DNA from: Actinomycetes bacterium
GTDB lineage: Bacteria > Actinomycetota > Thermoleophilia > RBG-16-64-13
Direction of reading: 5' to 3'
Length of the DNA: 64,000 nucleotides
Assembly (NCBI GenBank): GCA_024637035.1
Contig: JAGXFW010000024.1
Location: forward strand, 1 to 64,000
Part shown: positions 10,877 through 29,224 of the stretch, one piece after another
How the letters are laid out: the number at the start of each line of letters is the position of its first letter
How positions within the stretch are numbered: the first letter of the stretch is position 1
Position numbers and translations under genes: made by a program
Notes under the pieces: generated by a model
Databases searched by the model: none
What the model was told of the DNA's origin: nothing
What the model saw: only the letters and a program-made list of their open reading frames with translations

Positions 10877-11721
10877 CGTGCCGGCGGTCGTGCCGTGGCG
10901 GGCACGTGTGGGCGGAAGGGGAGTTCAAGGCCATGCCGCTCGAGCAGGGGGGCATCGGAGAGGATCTCGGCGGCGCGGCCGTCCGCCACCACTCTGCCCG
11001 CATCCAGGATGACGACTCGCTCGCATGTCTCGTACGCGTAGACCAGGTCGTGGGTGACGATCACCTTCGTCACCGGCAGATCGCGCAGGATCTCCACCAG
11101 CTTCCGGCGCGACCTGGGGTCGAGGTTCGAGCTGGGCTCGTCGAGCACCAGCACGTCGGGGTGCATACTGAGGACCGTGGCGGTGGCGATACGTTTCTTC
11201 TGGCCGAAGGAGAGGTGGTGTGCCGCGCGGTCGCCGAACTCGCTCATGTCCACGGCCTCGAGCGCCTCGTGGACGCGCGTGGCGATCTCGGACTCGTCGA
11301 ACCCCATGTTGGCCGGGCCGAACGCGACGTCCTGGAACACGGTGGTGAGGAAGAGCTGGTCGTCGGGGTCTTGGAAGACCACGCCCACGCGGCGCCTGGT
11401 CTCTCTGAGGGTGCGCTCTTCGATCGGCACGCCGAAGATGAGCACGCGGCCGCCCCCGCCCCGGAGTATGCCATTCAAGTGCAGGAGGAGCGTGGACTTG
11501 CCGGCGCCGTTCGGGCCGATGACGGCCACCGACTCACCCTGCTCGATGACGAGGTCCACCTGGCTGAGCGCTTCCGTGCCGTCTGGATACGCATAGGTGA
11601 GACCCTCTATCTCCACCGCGGCTGGCTCGGAAGATCCCGTCGCCACCGCCGCGGGCACCGGCGCCGGAAACGGCCTGCCACGCTCTTCCACGTCCGACCT
11701 GCCTTCATCTCTCTTCGTCAC
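10873..11721 (-). CDS. cbiO: Nickel/cobalt ECF transporter ATPase (CbiO-like)
   Basis: A 282-residue ABC ATPase that powers uptake of Ni2+ or Co2+. Walker A GPNGAGKS, Q-loop VVFQDPDDQLF (the DPDDQ form typical of ECF ATPases), signature LSFGQKKR and Walker B VLVLDEPSSNLD are intact. About 35 residues of proline/alanine-rich sequence precede the ATPase domain. GTG 11721 overlaps the CbiQ stop (GTGA). The longer open frame to 12150 is a shadow of cbiQ. Confidence 0.92.
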   Translation of the reverse strand: MTKRDEGRSDVEERGRPFPAPVPAAVATGSSEPAAVEIEGLTYAYPDGTEALSQVDLVIEQGESVAVIGPNGAGKSTLLLHLNGILRGGGGRVLIFGVPIEERTLRETRRRVGVVFQDPDDQLFLTTVFQDVAFGPANMGFDESEIATRVHEALEAVDMSEFGDRAAHHLSFGQKKRIATATVLSMHPDVLVLDEPSSNLDPRSRRKLVEILRDLPVTKVIVTHDLVYAYETCERVVILDAGRVVADGRAAEILSDAPLLERHGLELPFRPHVPATARPPAR

Positions 11722-12491
11722 AGGGCCACCCCGATCCGGATGGCGGTCAGGCTCGCAACGATCAACGTGAGGAAGACGGCCTCCGGGGCGTGGATACCGG
11801 GGGGTGAGGCGGCCGGCATGGTGCCATCGTAGCCTCGACTGGTCATGGCCACGTACACGCGCTCCCCTCTGGTGTAGCTGCGCATGAAGAGCGAACTGAT
11901 CACGTGCCCGACGATGCGAGTGTCCCACAGCCAGCGCCCCTTGTGGTTGCGCGCCTCCATCGCGCGCCGCATGCGCCGGTGCTCTTCGAGCAACACGAAA
12001 CTGTACCGATACATGAACGACACGATGAGTGTGAACACCCGGGGCACCCGCAGTCCGTCCAGCCCGGCAACGAGTTCCGGGAAGCTCGTGGTCAGCGTCA
12101 GCAGCATCATCGACAAGATGCCGAGGATGGCCTTCACCAGCACGTTCCACAGCATCACCAGCCCCGCCTCGGTGACCGTCACTCCCAAGATCAGATCGAA
12201 CTCACGGCCGCCCCCGCGATGGAAGAACGGCAGGAATACGGCCACGACTGCCACGAAGGGCAGAACGGCCGCGACACGGGTCAACAGGAAACGGAGCGGT
12301 AGGCGAGACAATCCCACCAGGAACACCAGGATCGCGAAGTAGAGGGCGAACGCCCAGATCGCCGTGGGAGGCGTGGTGGCACCGACCAACGTCAGACCGA
12401 AGAACCCCAGGATCTTTGCGCGTGGGTCGAGACGGTGGATCGGGCCGGCGCCGAAACGCGTGTCGGTGAGGAAGTGGTGCGCGCCACTCAC
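11718..12491 (-). CDS. cbiQ: Nickel/cobalt ECF transporter transmembrane coupling protein (CbiQ-like)
   Basis: A 257-residue integral membrane T-component linking the substrate-binding unit to the ATPase. RLDPRAKILGFF near 20-31 is the conserved N-terminal motif and about five to six hydrophobic helices follow. The coupling-helix signatures (EEHRRMRRAMEAR and YTRGERVYVAMTSRGY) contain the Ala-Arg-Gly groove elements that contact the ATPase. GTG 12491 overlaps the CbiM stop (GTGA). Confidence 0.92.
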   Translation of the reverse strand: MSGAHHFLTDTRFGAGPIHRLDPRAKILGFFGLTLVGATTPPTAIWAFALYFAILVFLVGLSRLPLRFLLTRVAAVLPFVAVVAVFLPFFHRGGGREFDLILGVTVTEAGLVMLWNVLVKAILGILSMMLLTLTTSFPELVAGLDGLRVPRVFTLIVSFMYRYSFVLLEEHRRMRRAMEARNHKGRWLWDTRIVGHVISSLFMRSYTRGERVYVAMTSRGYDGTMPAASPPGIHAPEAVFLTLIVASLTAIRIGVAL

Positions 12492-13645
12492 GAGTCGCCC
12501 CCGTGCTCATGATCGTGGTCATCGTGGTGATCGTGGTCCGGGTCCGTCTCCTCGGGCAGGTGGGGGGAGTGGCTGTGACCGCGATGGGTGTGCCCCGAAT
12601 GGCGGTGGTCCTTGTGCTCATGGCCGCCGAGCGGATGGAGGCTCGCGGCGACAGCGCCCCCTGCGGCGGCCGCCTTGGAGCGGCGACCGCTGAAGGCCCG
12701 CCCCAAGCCGAACAGGATCGCGAACAGGGCCAATGTGCCCACGAGTCCCGCGGCTGCGGTGGCCAGCGCGGGATTCTCGAAGCCTGGCAGTTGGTAGTCG
12801 GATATCGGAGTGAAGCCGCGATCACCGCTCTCGGCGGCACCATCGAATCCGTGGTCCTGGCCCACGCGCTCGAGTCCGTCGGGTGCCTGCGACGCGAACG
12901 GGGACACGAAGACCGAGATGGCCAGTGCCACGGCGAGGGCGGCGGCCAGGAAACCCCATGTCTTGGGAGGCGTCAGCGACGTACCGCGGCGCGCAGTCGC
13001 GCTGAGGCCTCTCGGTGGGCTGTGTACGAGGTCTGGGCGCGAGGCTAGGATCGTCGCCAGCACCGTGGTGGCGATCAATGCCTCACCGATGCCGATCACC
13101 ATGTGAACGCTCGTCATCGCCGGGAGAGCGAAGCGCAAGGGCACTGTGCCGCTCACGGCCAGTTCCACCGCCACCGCTCCTGAGGCGACTACCACCGAGA
13201 GCCACGAGGCCACCGCGACGCCCGCCAGGTACCCAGGGATCGTGGGGGGTAGGAGCGGGCGGAGCGCACGGTGGGCGCCGTAGCCCACGAAGACGGCCAC
13301 CACCGCCATGTTCAGCGTGTTCGCGCCGAGCGCGGAGATGCCGCCGTCGGCCATGCCGACTGCCTGCACCGCCGCGACGACCGCCATGACCACCACCGCG
13401 GCCCATGGACCCAGTACCACTGCGGCGAACGCCGCTCCAAGGAAGTGGCCGCTCGTTCCGGCCCCGATGGGGAAGTTGACCATCTGGGCCGCGAACACGA
13501 AGGCGGCCGTGACTCCGAGGAGCGGTACGGTCCGCTCGCCGAGTTCTCGGCTCGTACGGCGCACCGCGTAGGACAGGGTGACCAGGGCTCCGGTACTCGT
13601 AACGAGCACGGTGGGGGTGTCCAGGAAGCCGTCGGGAAGATGCAT
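12488..13645 (-). CDS. cbiM: CbiM-CbiN(PDGLE) fusion, Ni/Co-binding component with His-rich tail
   Basis: A 385-residue substrate-specific component. Residues 1-220 are CbiM: the N-terminal MHLPDGFLD, in which Met1/His2 ligate the metal, and multiple helices including NFPIGAGTSGHFLGAA. A linker leads to a PDGLE (CbiN-like) segment with SQAPDGLERVGQD at about 250-262 and a further helix. The C-terminal roughly 45 residues are packed with His and Asp (HEHKDHRHSGHTHRGHSH and DPDHDHHDDHDHEHGG), a probable metal-chelating tail. Nickel versus cobalt cannot be decided from sequence. It lies 16 bases downstream of a Fur-family regulator. Confidence 0.93.
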   Translation of the reverse strand: MHLPDGFLDTPTVLVTSTGALVTLSYAVRRTSRELGERTVPLLGVTAAFVFAAQMVNFPIGAGTSGHFLGAAFAAVVLGPWAAVVVMAVVAAVQAVGMADGGISALGANTLNMAVVAVFVGYGAHRALRPLLPPTIPGYLAGVAVASWLSVVVASGAVAVELAVSGTVPLRFALPAMTSVHMVIGIGEALIATTVLATILASRPDLVHSPPRGLSATARRGTSLTPPKTWGFLAAALAVALAISVFVSPFASQAPDGLERVGQDHGFDGAAESGDRGFTPISDYQLPGFENPALATAAAGLVGTLALFAILFGLGRAFSGRRSKAAAAGGAVAASLHPLGGHEHKDHRHSGHTHRGHSHSPHLPEETDPDHDHHDDHDHEHGGDS

Positions 13646-13661: not shown

Positions 13662-14096
13662 CTACGGCCGATCGGGCGGAACGTCGGCTTGGCGGCAGGT
13701 TCGGCACGATCCGAAGACCGTCACTTCCTGTACGAGGAAGCTGTTGCCGACGTCGAGCGCGGCCGAGAGACCGCGAAGATCGGTATCGTGGATGTGTTCC
13801 ACCGCGCCGCACTCCCTGCACACGAGGTGGTGGTGCGCGTCTTCCTCCTCGATCTCGAAGGTGCGGTGCTCGGGCCCGAGTAGCGTCTCTCGCACCAGGC
13901 TCAACGAGACCAGCAAATCGAGGGTGCGGTATACCGTCGACATGTTCACGTTCGGGAACTGACGGTTCACGCGCTCGCAGATCTCTTCGGCGCTCATGTG
14001 AGAACCGTGGTTGCGCAACACATCCCACACCAGAGTGCGCTGGGGGGTGAGGCGGTATCCTAGTTCCCGTAGTGTGCGTGTCGCGTGATGGCTCAT
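13662..14096 (-). CDS. Fur-family metalloregulator (Nur/Zur/Fur type)
   Basis: A 144-residue repressor. The winged helix has the family sequence GYRLTPQRTLVWDVL (residues 12-26) and the recognition region NVNMSTVYRTLDLL. The metal-binding region has EDAHHHLVCRECG with His and Cys ligands, and a second CRTC pair for the structural zinc near the C-terminus. It starts the operon with the Ni/Co transporter, so a nickel-responsive (Nur-like) or cobalt-related function is the best inference. ATG 14096 is used; the frame open to 14936 upstream is a shadow of selD. Confidence 0.92.
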   Translation of the reverse strand: MSHHATRTLRELGYRLTPQRTLVWDVLRNHGSHMSAEEICERVNRQFPNVNMSTVYRTLDLLVSLSLVRETLLGPEHRTFEIEEEDAHHHLVCRECGAVEHIHDTDLRGLSAALDVGNSFLVQEVTVFGSCRTCRQADVPPDRP

Positions 14097-14118
14097 TGCA
14101 GATGCGAATCTATTGCAG
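14095..14118. promoter_or_regulatory. Candidate Fur-family operator at the fur start
   Basis: Two identical 7-mers ATTGCAG (14095-14101 and 14112-14118) stand 17 bp apart, the first covering the fur start codon, with gat-gcga-atc between them. Nur boxes in actinobacteria are built from TTGCA/TGCAA half sites. The arrangement is a direct, not inverted, repeat, so the assignment is tentative. Confidence 0.35.
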
Positions 14119-14231
14119 GTAGGAGTTCCTGTCAACCCTGGCAGGGCTAGATGTTCTTTGGTAGCGTTGCGTCCGCCGTGCGCCCTGGTAGCTCGGCTGG
14201 GTCGCCCGGGTCGTTCAGAGGAGGAAGGAAC

Positions 14232-15302
14232 ATGGCAGACGGACCACCAAGACTCACCACGCTCTCTCACGGCTCCGGCTGAGCGTGTAAGCTGAGCCCC
14301 AAGGACTTGGGGCACGTCATCTCGCAGCTTCCTCGGTCGGCCGACCCGGACCTGCTCGTCGGCACCAACACCGCCGATGACGCTGCCGTGTATCGCCTCA
14401 CGGATGATCTTGCCCTCGTGCAGACCGTGGACTTCTTCACTCCCGTCGTGGACGACCCGTATGACTTCGGGCGCATCGCCGCCGCAAACTCGGTCTCGGA
14501 TATCTACGCGATGGGGGCTACCCCGCTGATCGCGCTGAACATCGTCGGCTTCCCCGTGGATACTCTGCCCCTGGAGCACCTCGTCGAGATCCTCCGGGGC
14601 GGCGCGGAGGTCGCGCGTCAGGCCGGTATGACCATCGTGGGGGGCCATACGATCGACGATCGCGAGCCCAAGTACGGTTTGGCGGTCACCGGCACGGTAC
14701 GCCCGGGGAGCCAAGTGACCAACGCGACGGCGCGGCCCGGCGACCACCTCGTCCTGACGAAACCACTCGGCACCGGGATCATCGCGACGGCCATCAAGCG
14801 CGGCACGGCCGAGCTCGCCGCTGTCGAAGAGGCCACACGGGTCATGGCGACGCTGAACCGCGATGCCTCGCTGGCGGCTCTGGCAAACGGCGTCACCTCG
14901 ATGACCGACATCACCGGCTTCGGATTGCTGGGCCACCTACTGGAGATGTGCAAGGGCAGTGGGGTCTCGGCGGAGATCTGGGCCGACTCCCTGCCTTGGT
15001 TGCAGGACGCTCGCTCGCTGGCCGAAGCCGGCGTGGTGCCCGGCGGCACCCGACGCAACCTGGCCTTCGTCGGGCCGGAAGTCGAGTGGGCCGACGACCT
15101 GCTCGAGTACGAACGCCTGCTCCTTGCCGATGCCCAGACCTCGGGTGGCCTACTGATCGCCGTGCCGAGCGACCGTGCGGACGCATTGATCGCCGACCTG
15201 CGCGATCGAGGCACCCCCGCCGCGGCGCTGGTGGGCCGGGTGCGTTCCGCGGGGGAGAGGTCCATCGTCGTTCGCCGGGGTCCCGCTTCGGGCTCATCGT
15301 GA
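14232..15302 (+). CDS. selD: Selenide, water dikinase (selenophosphate synthetase), a selenoprotein with in-frame TGA
   Basis: Makes selenophosphate from selenide and ATP for selenocysteine and selenouridine synthesis. Starting at ATG 14232 (ribosome binding site GAGGAAGGA), the frame reads MADGPPRLTTLSHGSG, then TGA at 14280-14282, then ACKLSPKDLGHVIS and continues to 15302: 356 residues with Sec at position 17, the position of the catalytic Cys17 of E. coli SelD, followed by the essential Lys20. Downstream motifs include NTADDAAVY, VDFFTPVVDDPYDFGRIAAANS and GGHTIDD. A SECIS-like hairpin follows the TGA. Automatic gene calling would start after the TGA (e.g. TTG 14307) and lose the active site. 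Confidence 0.95.
14280..14313 (+). promoter_or_regulatory. Selenocysteine UGA codon and bacterial SECIS-like hairpin in selD
   Basis: The TGA at 14280-14282 is followed, after 13 bases, by a perfect 8-bp inverted repeat (gccccaag / cttggggc, 14296-14313). Pairing six of those base pairs leaves a GGAC apical loop containing the guanine typical of SelB-binding loops. Distance from the UGA matches bacterial SECIS elements, which lie within the coding sequence right after the codon. Confidence 0.82.
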
Positions 15303-17755: not shown

Positions 17756-18967
17756 TTAACCGGTTGGTATCGCCTGGATCGTCGTCAACGAGTAGCCGCT
17801 CTCGAGGAGCCAATCGATGATCCCCGGGAGTGCGGCCACCGTCTGCGACCGGTCGCCCCCGCCGTCGTGCATGAGGATCACTGCTCCCGGCTTCACAGCG
17901 GACTTGACGCGCGACGTGATCGACGCCGCGTCGCGGATCTTCCAGTCCAGTGTGTCCACGCTCCACATCGCGATCCTCTGCCCCTGCCGCGCCGCCTCCG
18001 CGGTGACCACCGCGTTGTTGGCGCCGTACGGAGGTCGTAGGAGGCGCGCCCCGCCGATGGCGGCGGCGCCTCGTGCTATCTCGGCACTCAGTCCCTCGCC
18101 CGAGAGCTTGGTGAGATCGGCATGACCCCACGTGTGGTTCTCGACCGCGTGCCCTGCAGCCCGAGCGTTCGCCGTCACCGACTTGTACGAGGCGGCGACC
18201 TTGCCTATCCAGAAGAAGGTCGCAGGCACCCCCTTCTTCTCCAAGACGGCGAGTATCTGAACGGTGTACTCACTCGGCCCATCGTCGAACGTGAGGGCCA
18301 CAGCACGCCGGCCCTCGGGCACGGCGCTGGTGCGCTGCAGGAGGCCTGGCTCAGCTTCACGAAGCACGAAGGTCGCGATGGGTGCGGCGCTGCGTTCGCC
18401 GTGGAACCGCTCCTCGAGCCCGGGCTTCCCCTCGCGTACCTGGGTGACCACGGGGCCGTTTCCCTGGATCTCATAGGCGTAAGAGATCCCCTCTTCTTCG
18501 CGTTCCAGCCCTTCCGTGCGGTCCGAGCCGTGCCGGCCGGTGATCGTCGCTCCGGCGTGAATGACGCCGTCGAGCGGGAACGGCGCTCCATTCACCAGGA
18601 CGAACCCGGGTCCGCCGCCGCCCGGCACCATGACGTCGCCGGTGACGTCATGGTTGGACCCCGGGCGGATCGAGAGATCACGGAGACCTGTGACTTGCGC
18701 GAGGGTCGTATCCGGCCCGATCTGAGCCACGACGCCATCGACGGAAACGAGGTCCGAGGCGCTCAACCCTGAGGCCGGTGCCGCCAACACGATGAGAAGG
18801 GCGAAGGCGACGGCGGCAGCCCGCTGGAGCCGCACGGTGCGCCGGGCCTTCCTGCGAAGGGCCCTGTAGTCCCGCCGACGGTCGTCGCCGGCGCCGCCAG
18901 TAGCGGCGTCCTCGAAAGCGGTCTCCGCGGCAGCCTTGGTGATGATCTTGTTGTCAGCCCCCGTCAC
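17756..18967 (-). CDS. Membrane-anchored polysaccharide deacetylase (NodB homology)
   Basis: A 403-residue protein with a cytoplasmic N-terminus, one transmembrane helix (about 47-68, AAAVAFALLIVLAAPASGLSA), a roughly 140-residue unknown extracytoplasmic region and a C-terminal NodB domain. Catalytic motifs are TFDDGPSEYT (Asp-Asp), ENHTWGHADL (metal-binding His-x3-His), RPPYG and ILMHDGGG. It is expected to remove acetyl groups from cell-wall or capsule sugars outside the membrane. GTG 18967 overlaps the stop of the NuoI-GltD fusion, so it is translated from the complex I operon, an unusual partner. Confidence 0.9.
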   Translation of the reverse strand: MTGADNKIITKAAAETAFEDAATGGAGDDRRRDYRALRRKARRTVRLQRAAAVAFALLIVLAAPASGLSASDLVSVDGVVAQIGPDTTLAQVTGLRDLSIRPGSNHDVTGDVMVPGGGGPGFVLVNGAPFPLDGVIHAGATITGRHGSDRTEGLEREEEGISYAYEIQGNGPVVTQVREGKPGLEERFHGERSAAPIATFVLREAEPGLLQRTSAVPEGRRAVALTFDDGPSEYTVQILAVLEKKGVPATFFWIGKVAASYKSVTANARAAGHAVENHTWGHADLTKLSGEGLSAEIARGAAAIGGARLLRPPYGANNAVVTAEAARQGQRIAMWSVDTLDWKIRDAASITSRVKSAVKPGAVILMHDGGGDRSQTVAALPGIIDWLLESGYSLTTIQAIPTG

Positions 18968-20934
18968 GGAAGGCCGTCCTTGTTGGGGAGTTCATCGGGC
19001 GCAGTGAATTCGCGCAGCATCTTCTCGCGGTCGTAGAAGAGGTCGCGGCGCGATCGCGTGGAGTAGTCGAACGAGGCCGACAGGCTCAGCGTCTGAGTGG
19101 GGCATACGTCCTGGCAGAACCCGCAGAAGCAACACCACTCCATAACGAAGTCGTAGCGCTCCACGCGCCTCTCGTAGCCCGTGTCGTACCCTTGCACGTC
19201 GATGCAGTTGTCCGGGCACACGCGGGCGCACATGGTGCACGCCACGCACACCTGGGTCTGGCAGCGCATGCAGCGGATCGCCTCTGCGTGGTCGTCGCCC
19301 TTGGGCCAGCCGAGCTCCACCTGACCACCGGTGCGGATGCGCTTCCTCGGTTCCGATTCAGGCATGTGCACCCGGCGACCGCCAGGGCCGGCCCATTCGA
19401 AGTCCGCAGGCGTGGGGGCGTACATCTTCTCGAGGTAGTACTCGGACGGATGGACCGGGGGACGGCGCTCATGGTCGAGGCTCTCGCCTTGGATGTAGCG
19501 GTGCGCGGAGATGGCGGCCTCGTGGGCTTGACCGATGGCGATGATGATGGTCTTCGGGCCCATTGCCAGGTCTCCTGCCAGGAACACGCCGGGCAACGCG
19601 GTCGCGCCGGTCGTCTTGTCGCAGACGGGGCGGCCGAAGTTGTCGAACTCCACGCCTGACCCCTCGAGGAAGTCGAGTTGCAAGCGCTGGCCGACCGCGA
19701 ACACGACCGTCTGACACGGGATGACCGTGGACTCGTCGGAATACTGAAGATCCCACTTGCCCGTCGCGTCGAAGCGCGAGAGCACCTTCTTCAAGCGGAC
19801 GCCCACGACCGCGCCCTCTTCCACAAGGACTTCGTCGGGGCCCCAGGATGAGAGGAGGATCACCCCTTCCTCGATCGCTCCGGACACCTCGATCTCCTGT
19901 CCGGGCATCTCCTCCCGCGTCTCGACGTGCGCCTGTGTGGAGCTTGTCGCTCCGCAACGCAGGGCGCTCCGGGAGCAGTCGCACCCTACGTCGCCTCCGC
20001 CGATCACCACGACCTGAGGGCCGACCTTCGGCTTCTTCCCCATGCAGTACTCGTACAAGAAGTCGATCGCCGACCAGACGCCTTCGGCGTCGTGGCCGGG
20101 GAGCGGGAGCACACGGCCGCCGGAGTAGCCCACGGCGATGATCACGGCGTCGTGGTCGGCTCGGAGCTGCTCGAGCGTCACGTCCTTCCCTACCGTCACG
20201 CCGAACTTGAACTCCACACCGAGCTCCGCTAGGTCGCCGATCTCCTTGGCCACCACCTCGCGGTCGAGGCGGTAGAGGGGCACGCTGGTCACCAGCAGTC
20301 CCCCGGCGATCTGCTCGCGCTCGTAGATGGTGGCGCGGTACCCCATCTGCACCAGGTCATAGGCGGCCGCCAGCCCGGCTGGGCCGGCGCCTATGATGGC
20401 CACGTGCTCGGAACGGTGCACCAAGCTGGCGAGATGGCCGGGGTACCGCACTTCGCGGTCGTACACTTCGTAGCAGGCCCGATGGAGTTGTCGGATGGCG
20501 ATGGGGTCGTCGAGATACGAGCGGCGGCAGACATCCTCGCACGGGTTGTTGCATACGTAGCCCAGCACCGCCGGCAGCACGTTGCGCCGGCGCACGATGT
20601 TGTAGGCCTCGATATGGCGTCCGGCTGCCACGAGCGCGTTCTGCCCGCGGGCGTCCACATTGGCTGGGCAGCCGCCCTGGCAGGGGGCGATGCGCTGCTC
20701 GTCGTGGAGCCCGGTCATCAGGTCGTTGAATTCGAGCGGCGGGGCGTCTGTGATGGGTGGTGGCTCGTGATCCATGACGCCGCGCAGGCGAAGCGGGCCC
20801 CGCCAACGGGGGGAGAGTTGTGCCGGTTCGCCGGGATACATGCGCGTCACCGGCGGTGAGACCATGCGCTTCATGGTCTCGGCGTGGCCCTTGACGATGC
20901 CCACCCACGGTCTGACGAGGTCGCCCAGGCTCAT
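18964..20934 (-). CDS. NuoI interrupted by a GltD-type FAD/NAD(P)H oxidoreductase (complex I fusion subunit)
   Basis: A 656-residue chimera. Residues 1-52 match the NuoI N-terminus (KGHAETMKRM, VTRMYPGEPAQLSPRWRG). Residues about 55-550 are a GltD/NADPH-glutamate-synthase-small-chain module: Fe-S Cys85, Cys89, Cys128, Cys132, Cys136; FAD loop GAGPAG at 182-187; second Rossmann loop VVVIGGGDVGCDCS; FAD motif GVFLAGDLAMGPKT. Then the NuoI ferredoxin domain resumes with CVACTMCARVCP and CCFCGFCQDVCP and the NuoI ending SRRDLFYDREKML. It probably feeds electrons from NAD(P)H (or to it) into the complex I iron-sulfur chain, replacing NuoEFG. ATG 20934 overlaps nuoD (ATGA). Confidence 0.92.
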   Translation of the reverse strand: MSLGDLVRPWVGIVKGHAETMKRMVSPPVTRMYPGEPAQLSPRWRGPLRLRGVMDHEPPPITDAPPLEFNDLMTGLHDEQRIAPCQGGCPANVDARGQNALVAAGRHIEAYNIVRRRNVLPAVLGYVCNNPCEDVCRRSYLDDPIAIRQLHRACYEVYDREVRYPGHLASLVHRSEHVAIIGAGPAGLAAAYDLVQMGYRATIYEREQIAGGLLVTSVPLYRLDREVVAKEIGDLAELGVEFKFGVTVGKDVTLEQLRADHDAVIIAVGYSGGRVLPLPGHDAEGVWSAIDFLYEYCMGKKPKVGPQVVVIGGGDVGCDCSRSALRCGATSSTQAHVETREEMPGQEIEVSGAIEEGVILLSSWGPDEVLVEEGAVVGVRLKKVLSRFDATGKWDLQYSDESTVIPCQTVVFAVGQRLQLDFLEGSGVEFDNFGRPVCDKTTGATALPGVFLAGDLAMGPKTIIIAIGQAHEAAISAHRYIQGESLDHERRPPVHPSEYYLEKMYAPTPADFEWAGPGGRRVHMPESEPRKRIRTGGQVELGWPKGDDHAEAIRCMRCQTQVCVACTMCARVCPDNCIDVQGYDTGYERRVERYDFVMEWCCFCGFCQDVCPTQTLSLSASFDYSTRSRRDLFYDREKMLREFTAPDELPNKDGLP

Positions 20935-22157
20935 CGGTCCACGTCTCCCATCACGGGGTCTATCGTGCCCACGATATTGATCAGATCCGAGAGCGTGTAG
21001 CCCACGGAGAGGGCGGGCAGCATGGCGACGTTGTGGAACGAGGCGCCCCGCCACTTCATGCGATAGGGCTTCATGCCGCCGTCGCTCACGAGATAGCAGC
21101 CGATCTCCCCGCGCGGGGATTCGAGGCGGGCGTACGCTTCCCCCGGGTCGGGCGTGGGAAGGCGCGGCACCCGCTTCGCCAGGATCGGCCCGGCGGGCAT
21201 GTCCTCGATCGCCTGGTGGATGATCTTGGCGCTCTCCACGATCTCCTGGAAGCGTACCTCGGTACGGTCGTACACGTCGCCCGTCGTCCCGACCGGTATA
21301 TCGAAGTCGAACCGGTCGTAGATGGAGTACGGCATGTCGCGTCGAAGATCCCAGCGTATCCCCGTGCTCCGCAGCACCGGGCCTTGGGCACCGATGCGCA
21401 TGGCCTCGTCGTGGGAGAGCGTGCTGATGCCCTTGGAGCGCTCGTGCCAGATGTAGTTGTCGTGGAACAGGGTTCGGTAACTCGGCAGCTCGTCGATCAC
21501 CCCACGCACGCCTTCGCGCACGCGATCCGTCCAGCCCGGGGGTGCGTCGTAGATCACTCCCCCCAGTCGGAGGTAGACGTAGGTGAGCCGCGCTCCGCTG
21601 ATCTCCTCGAGCAGCTGCACGAGGCGCTCCCGCGCGTTGAAGCACCACAGGAAGTAGGAGGTTGCCCCGCTGTCGAGACCCAGGGCCCCCACGGACATCA
21701 GGTGGCTGGTGATGCGGTTGATCTCACCTGTGATCACGCGCAGGTGCTCCGCACGCTCGGGCACCTCGATGCCCATGAGCTTCTCGGCGGCCAGGCAGTA
21801 CACCCAGTCGTTGTGCATGGCGGCCAGGTAGTCGGTGGTGCGATCGGTGAAAGCGATCACCTGGTGGTAGCTGCGGTTCTCCACGATCTTCTCGAGCGAG
21901 CGGTGCATGTAGCCGATGCGCACGTCGAGACCCGCGACCTTCTCGCCGTCGAGTCGCGTGACCATGCGCATCACGCCATGGGTTCCGGGGTGGTGCGGCC
22001 CGATGTTGATCAGGAAGTCTTGAACGTCCTCGGGCGCCGCGTATTCCCCTTCCGGGATCAGGTGCTCGGGAGCGATGGACGCGGGGCCGGTTCCGGCCGG
22101 GGGACCGGCGCCGGTGGCGGTGCGTGCGGGGTCGGGTGGCAAGTGGTCGCGGGTCAT
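20931..22157 (-). CDS. nuoD: NADH-quinone oxidoreductase subunit D
   Basis: The 49-kDa-type subunit that, with NuoB, forms the quinone-binding cavity. 408 residues, standard length, with about 35 extra Pro/Ala-rich residues at the start. Motifs: NIGPHHPGTHGVMR (quinone-site His), GYMHRSLEKI, RITSHLMSVG and the C-terminal VGTIDPVMGDVDR. It is complex I-type rather than a hydrogenase large subunit since the NiFe cysteine pairs are absent. It lies 3 bases after nuoC and overlaps the fusion gene by ATGA. Confidence 0.96.
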   Translation of the reverse strand: MTRDHLPPDPARTATGAGPPAGTGPASIAPEHLIPEGEYAAPEDVQDFLINIGPHHPGTHGVMRMVTRLDGEKVAGLDVRIGYMHRSLEKIVENRSYHQVIAFTDRTTDYLAAMHNDWVYCLAAEKLMGIEVPERAEHLRVITGEINRITSHLMSVGALGLDSGATSYFLWCFNARERLVQLLEEISGARLTYVYLRLGGVIYDAPPGWTDRVREGVRGVIDELPSYRTLFHDNYIWHERSKGISTLSHDEAMRIGAQGPVLRSTGIRWDLRRDMPYSIYDRFDFDIPVGTTGDVYDRTEVRFQEIVESAKIIHQAIEDMPAGPILAKRVPRLPTPDPGEAYARLESPRGEIGCYLVSDGGMKPYRMKWRGASFHNVAMLPALSVGYTLSDLINIVGTIDPVMGDVDR

Positions 22158-22160
22158 GTG

Positions 22161-22682
22161 TCAGAAGTACTCCGGCCGCTTGATATCCACGTGGTCCGCG
22201 TAGTCCTTGCGAAGGGGGTGTCCCACCCAGGTCTCGGGGTTGAGGATCCGCTTGAGGTCGGGATGACCGGCGAAGTTCAGCCCGAAGAGATCGAACACCT
22301 CCCGCTCTTCCCAATCCGCGAGGAACCAAAGGTCGGTGATCGTGGGCACCGCGAAGTCGTCACGAGGGATCCGGATCGAGAGGCGGGTGACCAGCTTGGT
22401 CTCGAACGAGTAGGCCTGGAGCGTGAGGGTGAAGTGAGCGGGCCAGTCGACGCAGGTGAGGAAGTCGAATCGGTCGATGCCCTGAGATCGGATGAACTCG
22501 GCCGCGGCTCGGTATCCCGAAGCGGGGGTGATGAGGCAGACCGCGCCGTCGCGCGAGTCGTGATAGCCCACAAGCGCGGCGCCGAGCCGATCGCGCGCCG
22601 CCGCCACGAACGCATGGCGTGCCTCCTCGCGCGCACCGACCGCCGGCTTCGAACCGATGCCCGGAACAGGGACAGCGCTCAC
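22161..22682 (-). CDS. nuoC: NADH-quinone oxidoreductase subunit C
   Basis: The 30-kDa-type subunit of the peripheral arm, 173 residues and separate from NuoD. The signature region is [23 protein letters not shown] followed by HPLRKDY. GTG 22682 overlaps the nuoB stop (GTGA), so B, C and D are translationally linked. No cofactors are bound; it stabilises the arm next to NuoD. Confidence 0.95.
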
Positions 22683-23287
22683 GGGTGGTCGCCCTCGGCC
22701 TCGCCGCGGATCACACGCTCCAACTCGAGGATGCCGTCGATGAGCGCCTCGGGCCGCGGCGGGCAGCCCGACACGTATACGTCGACCGGGATCACCTGGT
22801 CCACACCCTTCACCACGCTGTAGCCGTCGTGGTAGTAGAGGCTTCCGGCGGTGGCGCAGTCGCCCATGGCGATGACCCAGCGCGGCTCCGGCATCTGGTA
22901 GTAGACCCGTTCCACCATGGGGGCCACCTTGTAGGTGACCGTGCCTGAGACGATGAGAAGATCCGACTGCCGGGGTGACCCACGAGGCATGACGCCGAAC
23001 CTATCGAGGTCGTAGTGGGAGGCGTTGGCAGCCATCATCTCGATGGCGCAGCACGCGAGTCCGAACATCATCTGCCAGAGCGAATGGGAGCGCGCCCACG
23101 AGATCATCTGTTGCGCGGAGTGGAGCACGGCGCCCGGAGCCACGAGGAGCGGTCCGAACTCCCGGTGCTCCGGGTGGTTCAGCGGGACGATCGCCCCGTG
23201 GTCGATCCACCGGCGGGGCGGGGTCGGGGCGTTGCCGTCTGTGTCGGAATCCGCGATCTGTCTCACCCTGCCTTGTCCGTGCGCCAT
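22679..23287 (-). CDS. nuoB: NADH-quinone oxidoreductase subunit B (cluster N2)
   Basis: A 202-residue subunit carrying the terminal [4Fe-4S] cluster N2 that reduces quinone. All four ligands are present: the tandem Cys-Cys in [10 protein letters not shown], Cys in GDCATAG and Cys in [11 protein letters not shown]. An amphipathic [13 protein letters not shown] precedes the first pair. It is the first gene of the minus-strand half of the split complex I locus; ATG 23287. Confidence 0.96.
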
Positions 23288-23590: not shown

Positions 23591-23959
23591 TTGAGCGGGG
23601 CGTACCTTTCAGACGTGCTATTCCTGCTTGGTTTCGCTCTAGCAGTCGTGACCATTCCCCTGGTCACCCTCGCCGCCTTCGGGTGGCTGCGCCCACGCTA
23701 CCCCGAGGTGCTGAAGGCGGAGGCCTACGAGTCGGGTATGCCGCAAGCCAGCATCCCGCGTCGACCTTTCCACATGGCCTACTACAACTTCGCCCTGGTC
23801 TTCATCGTGTTCGAGGTCGAGACTCTCCTGCTGTTCGCGGTCGCTCCGATCTTGCGTGACGCCGGGTGGCTTGGGCTGGCCGAGGTCGGCGCATTCGTGG
23901 CTCTGGTCGCGCTCAGTCTCTTCTACGCGTGGCGCAAGGGGGCCTTGGTGTGGAGATGA
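23591..23959 (+). CDS. nuoA: NADH-quinone oxidoreductase subunit A
   Basis: A 122-residue membrane subunit with three helices (about 7-29, 63-85, 94-113). The family motif is KAEAYESGMP, a variant of the usual PYECG with serine in place of cysteine, and FIVFEVETLLLF with the conserved acidic residues. TTG 23591 is chosen since AGGGAGGG lies 5-6 bases before it and no ATG fits. It heads the plus-strand operon. Confidence 0.94.
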   Translation: MSGAYLSDVLFLLGFALAVVTIPLVTLAAFGWLRPRYPEVLKAEAYESGMPQASIPRRPFHMAYYNFALVFIVFEVETLLLFAVAPILRDAGWLGLAEVGAFVALVALSLFYAWRKGALVWR

Positions 23960-24921
23960 GCTTGCCGCTCACGTTCGCCGCCGGCCTGCTCTGGGGCGCG
24001 GCGGCCTTCACCATCGTCGGGGCGCTCACGGCCGGGCTCGTGCTGGCCGAGCGCAAGGTGTCGGCGCGAATACAGGGCAGAGTCGGCCCGATGCACACCG
24101 GCCCTCATGGAGCCCTGCAGACCATCGCCGACATGATAAAGCTGGTGATGAAGGAAGACGTGCGCCCCGCCCGCGCGGACGCGACTGCCTTCCGGCTGGG
24201 CCCGCTGCTCGTGGCGGTGCCCGCGATTCTTTCTCTGGCGGTGATACCGTTCGGCGCCCCGCTCGTGATGCGCGACCTGAACGTGGGGGTGCTCTACTTC
24301 TTGGCCATCCCCGGCGTGACCGTGATAGGCCTTCTCCTCGCGGGGTGGGCCAGCTACGACAACTACTCGTTCCTCGGGGGGCTGCGTTCCTCGGCCCAGT
24401 TCATCAGCTACGAGATCCCGCGGAGCCTCACAGTGGTCACCGTGGTCATGCTTGCCGGCTCCCTGAGCACCGTGGACGTGCTCGACGCCCAGGCCACGGT
24501 GCCATACGCGGTGCTTCTGCCTTTCAGCTTCTTCCTGTATTGCGTCACCTCGCTGGCCGAGATCAACCGCCTGCCCTTCGACATGCCCGAGGCGGAGTCT
24601 GAGCTCGTGGCTGGATACCACACCGAGTACTCGGGATTCCGCTGGGCGCTGTTCTTCCTCGCCGAGTACGCGGGGTTCTTCGCGGCCGCGGCGTTCGGTG
24701 CCGTGCTGTTCCTCGGCGGCGGGAACGGCCCGCTTCTTCCGCCCATCGTCTGGCTGGCCGTGAAGACGGCCGCACTGCTGTTCATCGGCATGTGGATCCG
24801 CTTCACGCTGCCGCGCTTCCGCGCCGACCAACTCATGCGGCTTGCGTGGAAGGTGTTCCTGCCGGCCTCGCTCGCGAACCTCGTGCTTGCGGCCCTCATC
24901 ATGCGGGCGCTCGGCTCGTGA
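23956..24921 (+). CDS. nuoH: NADH-quinone oxidoreductase subunit H
   Basis: A 321-residue membrane subunit forming the quinone channel. Conserved sequences include ERKVSARIQGRVGP, GWASYDNYSFLGGLRSSAQFISYE and the loop EINRLPFDMPEAESELVAGYHTEYSG with its acidic residues. ATG 23956 overlaps the nuoA stop (ATGA). Eight or so helices are expected. Confidence 0.96.
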   Translation: MSLPLTFAAGLLWGAAAFTIVGALTAGLVLAERKVSARIQGRVGPMHTGPHGALQTIADMIKLVMKEDVRPARADATAFRLGPLLVAVPAILSLAVIPFGAPLVMRDLNVGVLYFLAIPGVTVIGLLLAGWASYDNYSFLGGLRSSAQFISYEIPRSLTVVTVVMLAGSLSTVDVLDAQATVPYAVLLPFSFFLYCVTSLAEINRLPFDMPEAESELVAGYHTEYSGFRWALFFLAEYAGFFAAAAFGAVLFLGGGNGPLLPPIVWLAVKTAALLFIGMWIRFTLPRFRADQLMRLAWKVFLPASLANLVLAALIMRALGS

Positions 24922-25421
24922 CCGAGTCCCAGAACATCGAACAGCTGCTCTTCGTGGCGTTCGGGATCGTCGCGGCCGGCGGCGCCCTCTTCGCGGTCGC
25001 GACGCGCTCGCTCCTGCGGTCGATCATCGCGCTGGGGGCCTTCCTCACCGCCGTGGCGGGCGAGTTCTACCTGCTTGCGGCCGACTTCCTCGCCGTCGTA
25101 CAGATATTCGTGTACGTAGGCGGTATTGTCGTGCTCATGCTGTTCGCCCTCATGCTGTCGGCGTCGGGCGTGCGGCACCCCATGGCGGCGATCGATCGGC
25201 CGGCTCTGGGCGCCGCGCTCTCGTATGTCATAGGAGCGGGGGTGCTGTGGGGTTCTCTTACCACCGACCTCCCCTCGGTGGGAGCCGGCACGGATGACGC
25301 CGTCGACGCCCTGGGGCGGGCGCTCCTGGGCTCTCAACTCTGGTCGTTCGAGCTTATCGGTGTGATCCTCTTGGCATCGGTGATCACTGCGCTCGTCATC
25401 GTGAGAAGGGAACGTCGATGA
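24918..25421 (+). CDS. nuoJ: NADH-quinone oxidoreductase subunit J
   Basis: A 167-residue membrane subunit with five helices. The central segment FYLLAADFLAVVQIFVYVGGIVVLMLF is the conserved helix 3 that undergoes the pi-bulge in other complexes. GTG 24918 overlaps the nuoH stop (GTGA). Confidence 0.94.
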   Translation: MTESQNIEQLLFVAFGIVAAGGALFAVATRSLLRSIIALGAFLTAVAGEFYLLAADFLAVVQIFVYVGGIVVLMLFALMLSASGVRHPMAAIDRPALGAALSYVIGAGVLWGSLTTDLPSVGAGTDDAVDALGRALLGSQLWSFELIGVILLASVITALVIVRRERR

Positions 25422-25720
25422 CCACGGCCGCCGTCACCCTGTCTTCGGTGCTCTTCGCCATAGGTGTGTTCGGTGTGCTCACCCGGCGGAATGCCATCTC
25501 GCTACTCGTCTCGGTGGAGATCATGATGAACGCCGCGATCATCAACCTTGTGGCGTTCTCTCGTCTGTACGAGCCGGAAGCGATGACCGGGCAGGTGTTC
25601 GCCCTGTTCGGTATCGGCATCGCGGCGTGTGAGGCTGCCATAGGGTTGGCTCTCGTGCTCGCGGTCTACAGACGCTTCGGCAGCACCGACGTGGATACCA
25701 TCGACCTCCTCAAAGGTTGA
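25418..25720 (+). CDS. nuoK: NADH-quinone oxidoreductase subunit K
   Basis: A 100-residue subunit with three helices. It retains the two proton-path glutamates, in SVEIMMNAAIINLV and in ACEAAIGLALVLAVYRRFG. ATG 25418 overlaps nuoJ (ATGA). Confidence 0.95.
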   Translation: MTTAAVTLSSVLFAIGVFGVLTRRNAISLLVSVEIMMNAAIINLVAFSRLYEPEAMTGQVFALFGIGIAACEAAIGLALVLAVYRRFGSTDVDTIDLLKG

Positions 25721-25725
25721 CCAGC

Positions 25726-27720
25726 ATGGCCGGACTCCTCGTTGCCATGTTCGCCGCGCCGCTCCTGGTCTGTGTGGCGCTCCTCGCGGGTGGCGCGGTC
25801 ACGTCGAGGTTGGATGAGACCGCCTCCCTCCGTCTGAGATCTCTCGCAGGTTGGATCTCCGTGGCAGGAACCTTCACCGCGTTCGTTCTGGCGCTTGTCG
25901 GCCTGTTCGCCGTCCACGGGGGAGAGGCTCCGGTGCTTCGCGCCGTGTGGTTCGAGGTGGGGGGGCTCGAGGTGCCGTTCAGCCTGAGACTGGACGGCCT
26001 GCAGGCGGTGATGGCGCTGGTCGTTTCGACGGTCGCCCTCCTGGTGCACCTCTACTCGATCGGCTACATGCACGGCGATCGCGACGCCACCGTCTACTTC
26101 GCCGAACTCTCGCTGTTCACATCGGCCATGCTCCTGCTCGTGCTGGCCGCCAACTTCTTCTTGCTCTACGTGGCCTGGGAGCTCGTCGGCGCCAGCTCCT
26201 ATCTGCTGATCTCGTACTACTTCCAGCGCCCGGAAGCTGCCGCGGCGGGCAAGAAGGCCTTCTTGACCACGCGGGTAGGCGACCTCGGGTTGCTCGTGGC
26301 GGTGTTCGCGATCGTGTCCCAGGCCGGGTCGTTCGACTACGACGCGGTCTTCGCGTGGGCCGCTGAGCCCGGGTTCCCAGGCGCCTGGGCGGTCGCCGTG
26401 CCCCTGTTGGTGTTCGCCGGGGCGGTGGGCAAGTCTGCGCAGTTCCCTCTGCACGTGTGGCTGCCCGATGCGATGGAAGGTCCCACGCCGGTCTCGGCAC
26501 TGATACATGCCGCCACCATGGTGGCGGCCGGAGTGTATCTCGTGGCGCGGGCCTACCCGCTCTTCGAAGCGGCCCCTGTCTCGCTCGACGTCGTGGCGTA
26601 TGTAGGCGCCTTCACCGCCCTGATGGCGGCGTCCATCGCCGTCGTGCAGTCGGACATCAAGAAGGTGCTCGCATATTCTACGATCAGCCAGTTGGGCTTC
26701 ATGATGGCCGCGCTCGGGGCGGGTGCTCCCTCCGCCGGCATCTTCCACCTGTTCTCGCACGCCTGGTTCAAGGCCCTGCTGTTCCTGGGGGCCGGCAGTG
26801 TGATCCATGCCACCGGCCGTCAGACGGTCGCGCGACTCGGTGGCCTGGCACGACGCATGCCGGTCACCGCCTGGACCTTCGCCGCGGGCGGCTTGGCCCT
26901 CGCCGGAATCCCCCCGTTCGCGGGATTCTGGAGCAAAGAGGAGGTGCTGGCCGGGCTGGCCGAGCATCATCCGGTCCTGCTCGGCCTGCTCCTTCTGGCG
27001 GGCTTCCTCACCGCGTTCTACATCACACGGCTGTTCTTCCTGGTGTTCTTCGGGCCGGAGCCGGCAGACGCCCCCGAATCCTCGCTCGCCCCGCCGGCCG
27101 GCCCGGCGAGCGCCGCGGCGCACCCGCCGGATGTCGCGGACGCGGGCGGTGAGGGCGTCTGGTCTGGAGTGAAGGAGTCCGGGTGGGTTATGAGCCTGCC
27201 TCTTGTGGTGCTCGGAGGGGCCTCGCTGGTAGCCGGGTTCGCGGGCGCGGAATTCCTCGGCCGACCTCTCCAGGACCTGTTGGGCCTTGAGGTAGCCGGT
27301 GCCGGGGCGGCCCACGATGCGCCAGCCTGGCTTCCGTGGGTGGCGACGCTCGCCGGGTTCGCGGGCGTGGGAGGGGGGTGGCTGGCGTATGGTCGCCGTT
27401 CCGGCCGCGTCGGTGGTCTGGGTTTCGACGCCCGGATGGAGAGTACCCTCGGAGGCTTCTATCGCGTGGTAGCGCGCGGCTATCTGGTCGACGAGTTCTA
27501 CTCCCGTGTCGTGATCGGGCCTTTCGTCTCCGTGAGTCGCTTCGCGTCGCGGCGGGTGGACGCCCGCGTCATCGACGGCGTGGTCGATGGGCTCGCGCGC
27601 ACGGTGGTTGCGGCCGGAGGCCTGGTGCGGCGCCTGCAGTCGGGCGAGGTGCGAGACTACTTGGCCGCGATGGCCGTAGGGGCGATCGTGGTCGCGGCCC
27701 TTGCCTTGGGGCTGCTGTGA
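25726..27720 (+). CDS. nuoL: NADH-quinone oxidoreductase subunit L
   Basis: The distal proton-pumping antiporter-like subunit, 664 residues with the long C-terminal extension. Motifs: YVAWELVGASSYLLISYYF, HVWLPDAMEGPTPVSALIHAATMVAAG, LAYSTISQLGFMM and GIPPFAGFWSKEEVL. ATG 25726 is preferred over TTG 25717 because AAAGG lies 9 bases upstream of it. An approximately 60-residue Ala/Pro/Gly-rich insert (about 445-500) precedes the last helices. Confidence 0.95.
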   Translation: MAGLLVAMFAAPLLVCVALLAGGAVTSRLDETASLRLRSLAGWISVAGTFTAFVLALVGLFAVHGGEAPVLRAVWFEVGGLEVPFSLRLDGLQAVMALVVSTVALLVHLYSIGYMHGDRDATVYFAELSLFTSAMLLLVLAANFFLLYVAWELVGASSYLLISYYFQRPEAAAAGKKAFLTTRVGDLGLLVAVFAIVSQAGSFDYDAVFAWAAEPGFPGAWAVAVPLLVFAGAVGKSAQFPLHVWLPDAMEGPTPVSALIHAATMVAAGVYLVARAYPLFEAAPVSLDVVAYVGAFTALMAASIAVVQSDIKKVLAYSTISQLGFMMAALGAGAPSAGIFHLFSHAWFKALLFLGAGSVIHATGRQTVARLGGLARRMPVTAWTFAAGGLALAGIPPFAGFWSKEEVLAGLAEHHPVLLGLLLLAGFLTAFYITRLFFLVFFGPEPADAPESSLAPPAGPASAAAHPPDVADAGGEGVWSGVKESGWVMSLPLVVLGGASLVAGFAGAEFLGRPLQDLLGLEVAGAGAAHDAPAWLPWVATLAGFAGVGGGWLAYGRRSGRVGGLGFDARMESTLGGFYRVVARGYLVDEFYSRVVIGPFVSVSRFASRRVDARVIDGVVDGLARTVVAAGGLVRRLQSGEVRDYLAAMAVGAIVVAALALGLL

Positions 27721-27750
27721 TGGAGGCCGTGTCGTGATGGAGGCCGTGCT
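27717..27750 (+). repeat. 17-bp tandem duplication at the nuoL/nuoN junction
   Basis: Two adjacent copies, 27717-27733 and 27734-27750, agree in the first 15 bases (GTGATGGAGGCCGTG). The second copy carries the NuoN start (ATG 27737). The first overlaps the nuoL stop and opens a five-codon frame (ATG 27720 to TGA 27737), so ribosomes could terminate right at the true start. Confidence 0.8.
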
Positions 27751-29224
27751 GCTGCTCTTCCCCAAGGGGGCCATAGCTGTCGCTGTGATGCTCGCCCTGA
27801 TGTTGGATTCACTCGCCCCTGGACGCGCTCGGCGCGGACTGATCATTGCCACCGTCGCGCTTCTGACGGTGGGTGCCGTGGTGGCCGCCGTGGGAATCGG
27901 ACGCTCGGCTGCGTTCATGGACGGCGCCCTGGTGGTCGACCGGTACTCGATCTTCAGCGACATCGTCTTGCTGGCCTTGGGCGCTCTCGTGACGCTCGCC
28001 GCCCTCGATTCGGTCGGATCGAGCGCCGATGGGGGCGACTTCCACGTGCTGCTCTACCTTTCTTTGGGCGGCGCCTCCGTGTTGGCCTCCGCGGGCAACC
28101 TGATCGTCGTCTTCCTGGGCATCGAACTCGCGATCATCCCCACGTTCGCGCTCGTCGCGTTCCGCGCCGAGGATCGACGCAGCTTCGAGGCGGCGCTCAA
28201 GTACTTCCTCCTGAGCGTGTTCGCGTCGGCTGTGCTCCTCTTCGGGTTCTCCTTGGTCTACGGAAGCACCGGTTCGGTGCGGTTGCCCCCTGGCGTCGAG
28301 GTGGTCGCGTCGAACATGCTGATCATAGGTATCGCTCTCGTGCTCGTGGGGTTCGGATTCAAGCTCGCCGCCTTCCCCTTCCACCAATGGCTCCCTGATG
28401 CCTTCGAGGTGTCGCACCCCGAGGTGGCGGCCTTCCTGGCGGTCGGACCGAAGTTGGCGGCGGTGGTCGCTCTGGTTCGTGTGCTCGAGGGTCTCACTGC
28501 TCTGAGCGGGGCTTGGACGGCGGCCCTCGCCGGGGTCGCGCTGCTCACGATGTTGTGGGGGAACCTGGGCGCGTTCCGACAGACCCGTCTGCCTCGTCTT
28601 CTCGCGTACTCGGCTATCGCCCACGCGGGCTACGCGCTGGTGGGTCTGGCCGGTGGAGGCTCGCGTGGTATGGACGGTGCCGTCGTGTACTTCGCGGCCT
28701 ACAGCGCAGCCGCGCTGGGGGCCTTCTTGGTCGTGGCGATGTTGTTGAGGGAGGGCCTCGGTGACAGGCTCGCCGATCTGCGCGGTCTGGGCCGGCGCAG
28801 GCCACTCCTGGCTGCGGCCATGAGTGTCTTCATGGTCTCGATGATCGGTGTGCCGCTCTTCGCGGGGTTCTGGGGGAAGTTCTCGGTGTTCCTGGGCGCG
28901 ATCGAAGGTGGGTTGGTGTGGCTGGCGGTGGCCGGGGTGCTGAACAGCGCCATGTCGTTCGGGTACTACGGCAACGTGATCAGGCTGATGTACTTCGGGG
29001 ATGCGGTCGACGATCGTGCGCCTGTCGGCGATCCTGAACCGGTCGGGGGGCTCGATGCAGCCGACGGACTCGATCGTGGCGGTGGATCCGTTCCGACGAC
29101 GCCGGCCAATCGAGGGTCATGGGGACAGCGGCTCGCGCTCGGGGCCGCGGTCGCGCTGACCCTTCTTCTCGGTGTCATCCCCTCACTCTTGTTCGGGGCT
29201 CTGGGAGTCTCGTCGGGCTTCTGA
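27737..29224 (+). CDS. nuoN: NADH-quinone oxidoreductase subunit N
   Basis: A 495-residue antiporter-like subunit. It is N rather than M because of ALKYFLLSVFASAVLLFGFSL and FKLAAFPFHQWLPDAFEVSHPEVAAFL, with Lys in FRQTRLPRLLAYSAIAHAGY. GTG 27734 is a possible alternative start with better spacing from GGAGG. A Gly/Asp/Pro-rich cytoplasmic loop near 435-470 interrupts the last helices. It is the last gene of the operon; no nuoM is found in the window. Confidence 0.94.
   Translation: MEAVLLLFPKGAIAVAVMLALMLDSLAPGRARRGLIIATVALLTVGAVVAAVGIGRSAAFMDGALVVDRYSIFSDIVLLALGALVTLAALDSVGSSADGGDFHVLLYLSLGGASVLASAGNLIVVFLGIELAIIPTFALVAFRAEDRRSFEAALKYFLLSVFASAVLLFGFSLVYGSTGSVRLPPGVEVVASNMLIIGIALVLVGFGFKLAAFPFHQWLPDAFEVSHPEVAAFLAVGPKLAAVVALVRVLEGLTALSGAWTAALAGVALLTMLWGNLGAFRQTRLPRLLAYSAIAHAGYALVGLAGGGSRGMDGAVVYFAAYSAAALGAFLVVAMLLREGLGDRLADLRGLGRRRPLLAAAMSVFMVSMIGVPLFAGFWGKFSVFLGAIEGGLVWLAVAGVLNSAMSFGYYGNVIRLMYFGDAVDDRAPVGDPEPVGGLDAADGLDRGGGSVPTTPANRGSWGQRLALGAAVALTLLLGVIPSLLFGALGVSSGF

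Follow-up and report, generated by a model that had tools for sequence, protein, structure and literature searches.

A GltD-Type Oxidoreductase Unit Built into NuoI Marks a Widespread Variant of Complex I in Actinomycetota

The window analyzed here is a stretch of 64,000 nucleotides from an Actinomycetes bacterium (contig JAGXFW010000024.1, assembly GCA_024637035.1). It contains a complex I locus with two divergent halves, nuoBCD-I* and nuoAHJKLN, which together encode 10 subunits. The asterisk denotes a fusion gene in which a GltD-type NAD(P)H oxidoreductase unit interrupts the iron–sulfur subunit NuoI. The original prediction had described this 656-residue frame at 18964–20934 without stating its strand. 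The frame is real and lies on the minus strand; the plus strand across the same interval contains stops. The fusion gene and its parts are arranged as follows.

18964–20934, minus strand: nuoI::gltD fusion gene, 656 amino acids plus stop (open reading frame list and domain scans)
20779–20934, minus strand: NuoI N-terminal part, residues 1–52, with helix, YPxE, and RWRG motif (hidden Markov model, HMM, of canonical NuoI; 48/48 fusions against shuffles)
20482–20682, minus strand: Fer4_20-type cluster domain, residues 85–151, with C85, C89, C128, C132, C136, and H151 (Pfam; cysteines in 48/48)
19525–20406, minus strand: flavin adenine dinucleotide (FAD) and NAD(P)H Rossmann domains, residues 177–470 (Pyr_redox_2; relatives NfnB, StnC, and GltD)
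19897–20013, minus strand: nucleotide-specificity segment, residues 308–346, with Glu338 replacing Tyr-Arg-Arg (comparison with NfnB-type proteins)
19261–19272, minus strand: C555-x2-C558, predicted to supply the remaining ligands of the second GltD cluster from its C-terminal side (homology to the N-terminal CxxC of NfnB)
19102–19248, minus strand: NuoI dicluster, residues 563–611, with N6a (C563xxC566xxC569xxxC573P) and N6b (C601xxC604xxC607xxxC611P) (TIGR01971 and conservation)

The fusion protein begins at an ATG with MSLGDLVRPWVGIVKGHAETMKRM, and the segment VTRMYPGEPAQLSPRWRG that had been cited in the original prediction corresponds to residues 29–46. The start codon overlaps the stop of nuoD by 4 nucleotides (ATGA), and the stop of the fusion overlaps the following gene likewise. 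The insert spans approximately residues 53–558, between the RWRG motif of NuoI and the first N6a cysteine, a stretch of about 510 residues compared to about 15 in canonical NuoI. HMM scans match the GltD-type model PRK12771 to residues 80–618 (412 bits) and the NuoI model TIGR01971 to residues 559–639 (91 bits), whereas the Pfam domains Fer4_20 and Pyr_redox_2 cover residues 83–157 and 177–470 (101.8 bits for the latter). For the two halves of NuoI, we built an HMM profile from canonical NuoI proteins and used 960 shuffles as control. Positions 12–49 of this profile align to residues 10–47 of the window protein (11.9 bits), positions 61–145 align to residues 561–644 (64.1 bits), and the match is broken at positions 50–60. 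Across 48 distinct fusion proteins, from which all conservation figures below are taken, the median score of the N-terminal NuoI part is 22.6 bits, compared to 4.9 for the best shuffle, and R43, R45, and G46 are invariant. Both 4Fe-4S motifs of NuoI are present, as are all features of the GltD/NfnB type, namely the Fer4_20 cysteines and the FAD and NAD(P) Rossmann domains. These scans and the split profile match bear out the proposed succession of a NuoI N-terminus, a complete GltD module, and a resuming NuoI dicluster.

PRK12771-type GltD proteins with a C-terminal dicluster share the order of GltD unit, CxxC, and two-cluster ferredoxin. However, that family lacks the NuoI N-terminus and the NuoI C-terminal extension, and the 412 bits of the fusion fall below the model cutoff of 516. 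The idea that the C-terminal ferredoxin is merely of the PRK12771 type is also disfavored because residues 553–648 match NuoI models and NDUFS8/Nqo9 chains, and because the insert occupies a loop of NuoI.

Genome searches, which were centered on Actinomycetota only, detected this fusion in 77 sampled genomes, which represent 20 families and three classes. These comprise 7 genomes of the window's family, 58 of the 348 genomes of a second class, and 12 of the 36 genomes of a third. Two of these 12 matched only from residue 79, and reading of the loci revealed either full fusions or cuts at contig ends. A contig scan with short patterns from the window protein matched only the window's close family. 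At all 23 loci that were read, the fusion is surrounded by other nuo genes and takes the position of nuoI. The usual order is nuoABCDH-[I::GltD]-JKLMN, while the window's family and one further family (f72) have the divergent arrangement nuoBCD-I* / nuoAHJKL(M)N instead. Outside the window's family, the 11-subunit set ABCDHIJKLMN, with the fusion as I, is found wherever the contig spans the operon. The carriers are widely distributed bacteria, most of which have not been cultured.

Among the 15 predicted cluster cysteines, 13 occur in 48/48 fusions (85, 89, 128, 132, 136, 558, 563, 566, 569, 573, 601, 604, and 607); C555 occurs in 47/48, and C611 in 47/47 of the sequences that reach this position. 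Compared to a sister species, the ratio of nonsynonymous to synonymous substitution rates (Ka/Ks) is 0.10 for the fusion overall, 0.03 for the dicluster, and 0.11 for the GltD part. Given the shuffle test, the conservation in 77 genomes, and the overall Ka/Ks of 0.10, the fusion is neither a product of chance nor a frame error. It had been considered that close relatives might keep separate nuoI and gltD genes with a frame error here; we found the opposite, a conserved fusion. In a NuoD tree, limited to Actinomycetota and with long branches, the NuoD proteins of fused complexes cluster together and are separated from the canonical NuoD copies that these genomes also encode (support 96/93). Because these NuoD proteins group together, the fused complexes may have a single origin.

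The remaining complex I genes of the window are the following.

20931–22157, minus strand: nuoD, overlapping the fusion gene by 4 nucleotides, quinone-site His and Tyr retained
22161–22682, minus strand: nuoC (NCBIfam model)
22679–23287, minus strand: nuoB, with all four cysteines of cluster N2 (NCBIfam model)
23591–23959, plus strand: nuoA, start of the divergent half (NCBIfam model)
23956–24921, plus strand: nuoH (NCBIfam model)
24918–25421, plus strand: nuoJ (NCBIfam model)
25418–25720, plus strand: nuoK (NCBIfam model)
25717–27720, plus strand: nuoL (TIGR01974, 601 bits)
27740–29224, plus strand: nuoN, not nuoM (TIGR01770, 344 bits, compared to 150 bits for the NuoM model)

The site of quinone reduction looks ordinary. 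NuoB contains the tandem cysteine and the two further cysteines for N2, and the THG and DY motifs of NuoD, which by analogy to Thermus Nqo4 we take to form the quinone site, are conserved in the alignment. No nuoE, nuoF, or nuoG was found at the window locus or in the fusion loci of relatives that we read. To look for NuoF elsewhere in the carriers, we searched 33 fusion genomes for its C-terminal domain (PF10589), a search that recovers this domain from seven controls, E. coli among them. No match was found in 18 of the 33, a complete single-contig genome among them. Since nuoEFG is absent at the locus and NuoF is absent from these 18 genomes, the GltD insert is the leading candidate for the electron-input role.

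How could electrons reach N6a from this insert? NfnB and GltD contain an N-terminal segment that ends in CxxC just ahead of the Fer4_20 cysteines, but in the fusion it is not so placed. Residues 3–49 of NfnB (4ylf_B) align instead to residues 519–565 of the fusion and end in C555xxC558. The insert thus has no N-terminal CxxC because the homologous segment sits on its C-terminal side. The ligand sets of both GltD clusters were assigned from what we take to be the ligands in dihydropyrimidine dehydrogenase. By this analogy, the FAD-proximal cluster is predicted to be bound by C89, C128, C132, and residue 151, and the second cluster by C85, C136, C555, and C558, a set that comes within five residues of the first N6a cysteine. 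The path that we infer from this arrangement, with its cofactor distances, direction, and coupling, would run as follows. NADH (NADPH in one family) would give a hydride to FAD, from which single electrons would pass to the first [4Fe-4S] cluster (C89, C128, C132, and His/Lys151), to the second cluster (C85, C136, C555, and C558), and then to N6a. From there they would follow N6b and N2 in NuoB to the quinone at NuoD/NuoH, and this flow would drive proton pumping by the membrane arm. In complex I, NuoG normally docks on the N6a side. The GltD/NfnB-like unit, placed in the loop just before N6a, would functionally replace NuoEFG, and the enzyme may run in reverse, from quinol to NAD+, at high proton-motive force. 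PF02621, a family of the futalosine pathway to menaquinone, was found in 13/13 fusion genomes tested. The sole tested genome without the fusion (G431) also lacks PF02621, and genomes of the second class have a single PF02621 copy.

The nucleotide-binding segment suggests which pyridine nucleotide is used. Position 338 is Glu in 41/48 fusions, and the arginines of the YRR motif that marks NADPH sites are missing there; the window protein has HVE at this position. NADH is therefore likelier than NADPH as substrate of the window enzyme, and the 41 fusions, including that of the window, are predicted to be NADH-linked. The YRR motif occurs only in one family (f25, loci L115–L121), which is predicted to use NADPH. 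The proposal of NAD(P)H linkage can thus be narrowed to NADH for most carriers. Residue 151 is His in 40/48 and Lys in 8/48 fusions. Family f25 combines Lys151 with YRR, while all fusions outside f25, except that at locus L123, combine His151 with Glu338, so that the residue-151 ligand and the nucleotide choice seem to covary. The equivalent residue is Lys in the nonbifurcating StnC and Glu in the bifurcating NfnB (PMC10482914).

Known systems provide partial precedents for such an architecture. The 14-subunit complex I (NuoA–N) shares NuoA, B, C, D, H, I, J, K, L, and N (and M in most fusion families), clusters N6a, N6b, and N2, and the quinone site with the fused complex. The latter, however, lacks NuoEFG, the FAD-based GltD unit in NuoI takes the place of NuoF, which is based on flavin mononucleotide, and the window's family lacks NuoM. 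The 11-subunit complex I-like enzymes, for example from Desulfitobacterium, have the same subunits in the same order, nuoABCDHIJKLMN, as most fusion operons (PMC11238625). Their NuoI is plain and their donor unknown, in contrast to the covalently attached donor module of the fused complex. In StnC from Sporomusa ovata (PDB 8oh5/8oh9), a GltD domain is joined to a NuoG-like one, and its structure sets a precedent for the supply of a complex I-type Fe–S chain by a GltD unit without bifurcation (PMC10482914). StnC also resembles the fusion in having a C-terminal-side CxxC that aligns with C555/C558 and, as in family f25, a Lys at the 151 equivalent. Unlike the fusion, StnC is a soluble transhydrogenase with a NuoG-like rather than a NuoI partner domain and with an NADPH site (YRR). 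NfnB (5jca, 4ylf) and GltD share the Fer4_20, FAD, and nucleotide domains with the fusion but are separate proteins with an N-terminal CxxC and an RR signature for NADPH; Nfn furthermore has the Glu ligand and the partner NfnA. In archaeal F420H2 dehydrogenase, too, an 11-subunit complex I core is served by an alternative flavin/Fe–S module, FpoF/FqoF, which differs from the fusion in being a separate, F420-specific subunit of a different fold family.

On the evidence above, we consider it likely that the locus encodes a complex I with its electron-input module built into NuoI, where the GltD unit replaces NuoEFG. Several observations weigh against this interpretation. An AlphaFold model based on a shallow alignment of eight sequences reached a mean predicted local distance difference test (pLDDT) score of 47.5, at which the distance between FAD and a cluster is not readable. 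The remaining 15 of the 33 genomes, including that of the window, encode NuoF-like domains, and such a protein may dock to the fused complex. Nearly all of these domains sit in open frames of at least 587 amino acids. Such frames exceed NuoF in length and resemble those of soluble hydrogenases or formate dehydrogenases, so these proteins are probably soluble enzymes. The window's family also lacks NuoM, which is expected in a textbook complex I, and retains only L and N of the three antiporter-like subunits; fusion families outside it have L, M, and N. Finally, quinones were detected neither in Parvivirga hydrogeniphila, a probable carrier described below, nor in Anaerosoma tenue (PMC9686372), so that a quinone is only a putative final acceptor in P. 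hydrogeniphila.

With respect to NuoM, a PF00361 search found no orphan antiporter-like gene elsewhere in the window genome, and the lateral-helix region of NuoL in the window's family looks normal, with no change seen that would compensate for the missing subunit. The eight PF00361 genes of this genome are L and N of this locus, L, M, and N of an operon on contig 6, and three genes of a cluster on contig 3. The contig 6 operon (L030, 5585–15662) is a second, canonical nuoABCDHIJKLMN with no EFG between D and H. Most other fusion genomes checked also contain two copies of complex I, which may point to a pair of enzymes that differ in their donors. The contig 3 cluster (L031, 8800–15300), with NuoH-, NuoK-, and three NuoL/N-like genes, resembles a group 4 complex of the Hyf/Ehr type.

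A cultured carrier is very probably at hand, as genome G211 is very probably that of P. hydrogeniphila Es71-Z0120. G211 is PF10589-negative and has two complex I loci, one A-B-C-D-H-I*-J-K-L-M-N and the other canonical in reverse orientation. The published genome description reports no NuoEFG and two loci, NuoACDHJKLM and NuoNMLKJIHDCBA; NuoI is not listed for the first locus, and ferredoxin is suggested as the donor (PMC9686372). The missing NuoI is as expected for a fusion that was annotated otherwise.

This isolate bears on the most serious competitor, in which electrons from quinol or ferredoxin would flow through the GltD unit to NAD(P)+, driven by the proton-motive force, and provide reducing power for autotrophy. 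Lithoautotrophic growth on H2 is reported for P. hydrogeniphila (PMC9686372). GltD/Nfn units are generally reversible, and the second, canonical-type complex I in the fusion genomes examined could run the opposite way. On the other hand, the sequence gives no direction, N2 and the quinone site look ordinary, and the operons read contain no gene for a ferredoxin partner. The ferredoxin linkage raised in the original prediction finds no support. We regard this reverse assignment as unlikely.

The bifurcation raised there as well fares worse. A bifurcating or confurcating complex I, in which FAD would split the electrons of NAD(P)H between ferredoxin and the quinone branch, could draw on the homology to the bifurcating NfnB and on an FAD-contacting Arg (R222) in 48/48 fusions, but the same Arg is kept in the nonbifurcating StnC (PMC10482914). 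The operons read contain no second acceptor flavoprotein similar to NfnA (with a [2Fe-2S] cluster and a second FAD), the unit has a single Fe–S exit, and the proximal-cluster ligand is His or Lys rather than the Glu of NfnB. Bifurcation by this complex is thus very improbable. We give slightly less credence still to the notion that the GltD unit persists as a structural remnant while ferredoxin feeds N6a, as supposed for other 11-subunit complexes. The sister complexes in fusion genomes do have a plain NuoI in an operon without NuoEFG, and ferredoxin has been assumed for this lineage (PMC9686372); a remnant would, however, be difficult to reconcile with cluster ligands and FAD and nucleotide motifs that are conserved over 20 families, with variants at the nucleotide site, or with the Ka/Ks of the GltD part. 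An assembly or frame artifact joining separate nuoI and gltD genes is refuted by intact fusions in many independent genomes and assemblies, one of them a complete single contig, even though the single-contig assembly FR_37 (L035), one of the seven carriers in the window's family, has a frame break near 10974 inside the gene, which with about 75% identity on either side is probably a sequencing error.

The fusion gene is followed in the window by one gene outside complex I.

17756–18967, minus strand: polysaccharide deacetylase, its start overlapping the fusion stop by 4 nucleotides

This gene is possibly cotranscribed with the fusion gene. A polysaccharide deacetylase also lies downstream of the fusion at L032 and L035, with no match at L033. 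Further away, at 11718–13645, genes for a CbiM/CbiQ-like cobalt transporter of the energy-coupling factor type adjoin a Fur-family regulator (within 13662–14936).

The fusion is a new and widespread variant of complex I; we found no earlier description in the open-licence literature, subscription papers being outside this search. More tentatively, the fused complexes could constitute a separate class of complex I in which the GltD unit in NuoI took over NAD(P)H oxidation, with an NADH-linked main group, an NADPH-linked branch (f25), and, in the window's family, a 10-subunit pump that lost NuoM. If so, this loss would lower the proton-to-electron ratio, suited to the small redox drop from NADH to menaquinone. 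What donates electrons to the 11-subunit complex I enzymes is a standing question, and no common donor protein has been found for them (PMC11238625). With the donor module joined covalently to the core, the sequence itself points to the answer for this lineage, which can be put to the test, probably in a cultured isolate. The fusion shows how an input module can couple straight to N6a, and it suggests that complex I gained pyridine-nucleotide input more than once, by way of different flavoproteins. Since the published genome of the probable carrier lists no NuoI at the locus and assumes ferredoxin as the donor, metabolic models of subsurface Actinomycetota may have to be revised.

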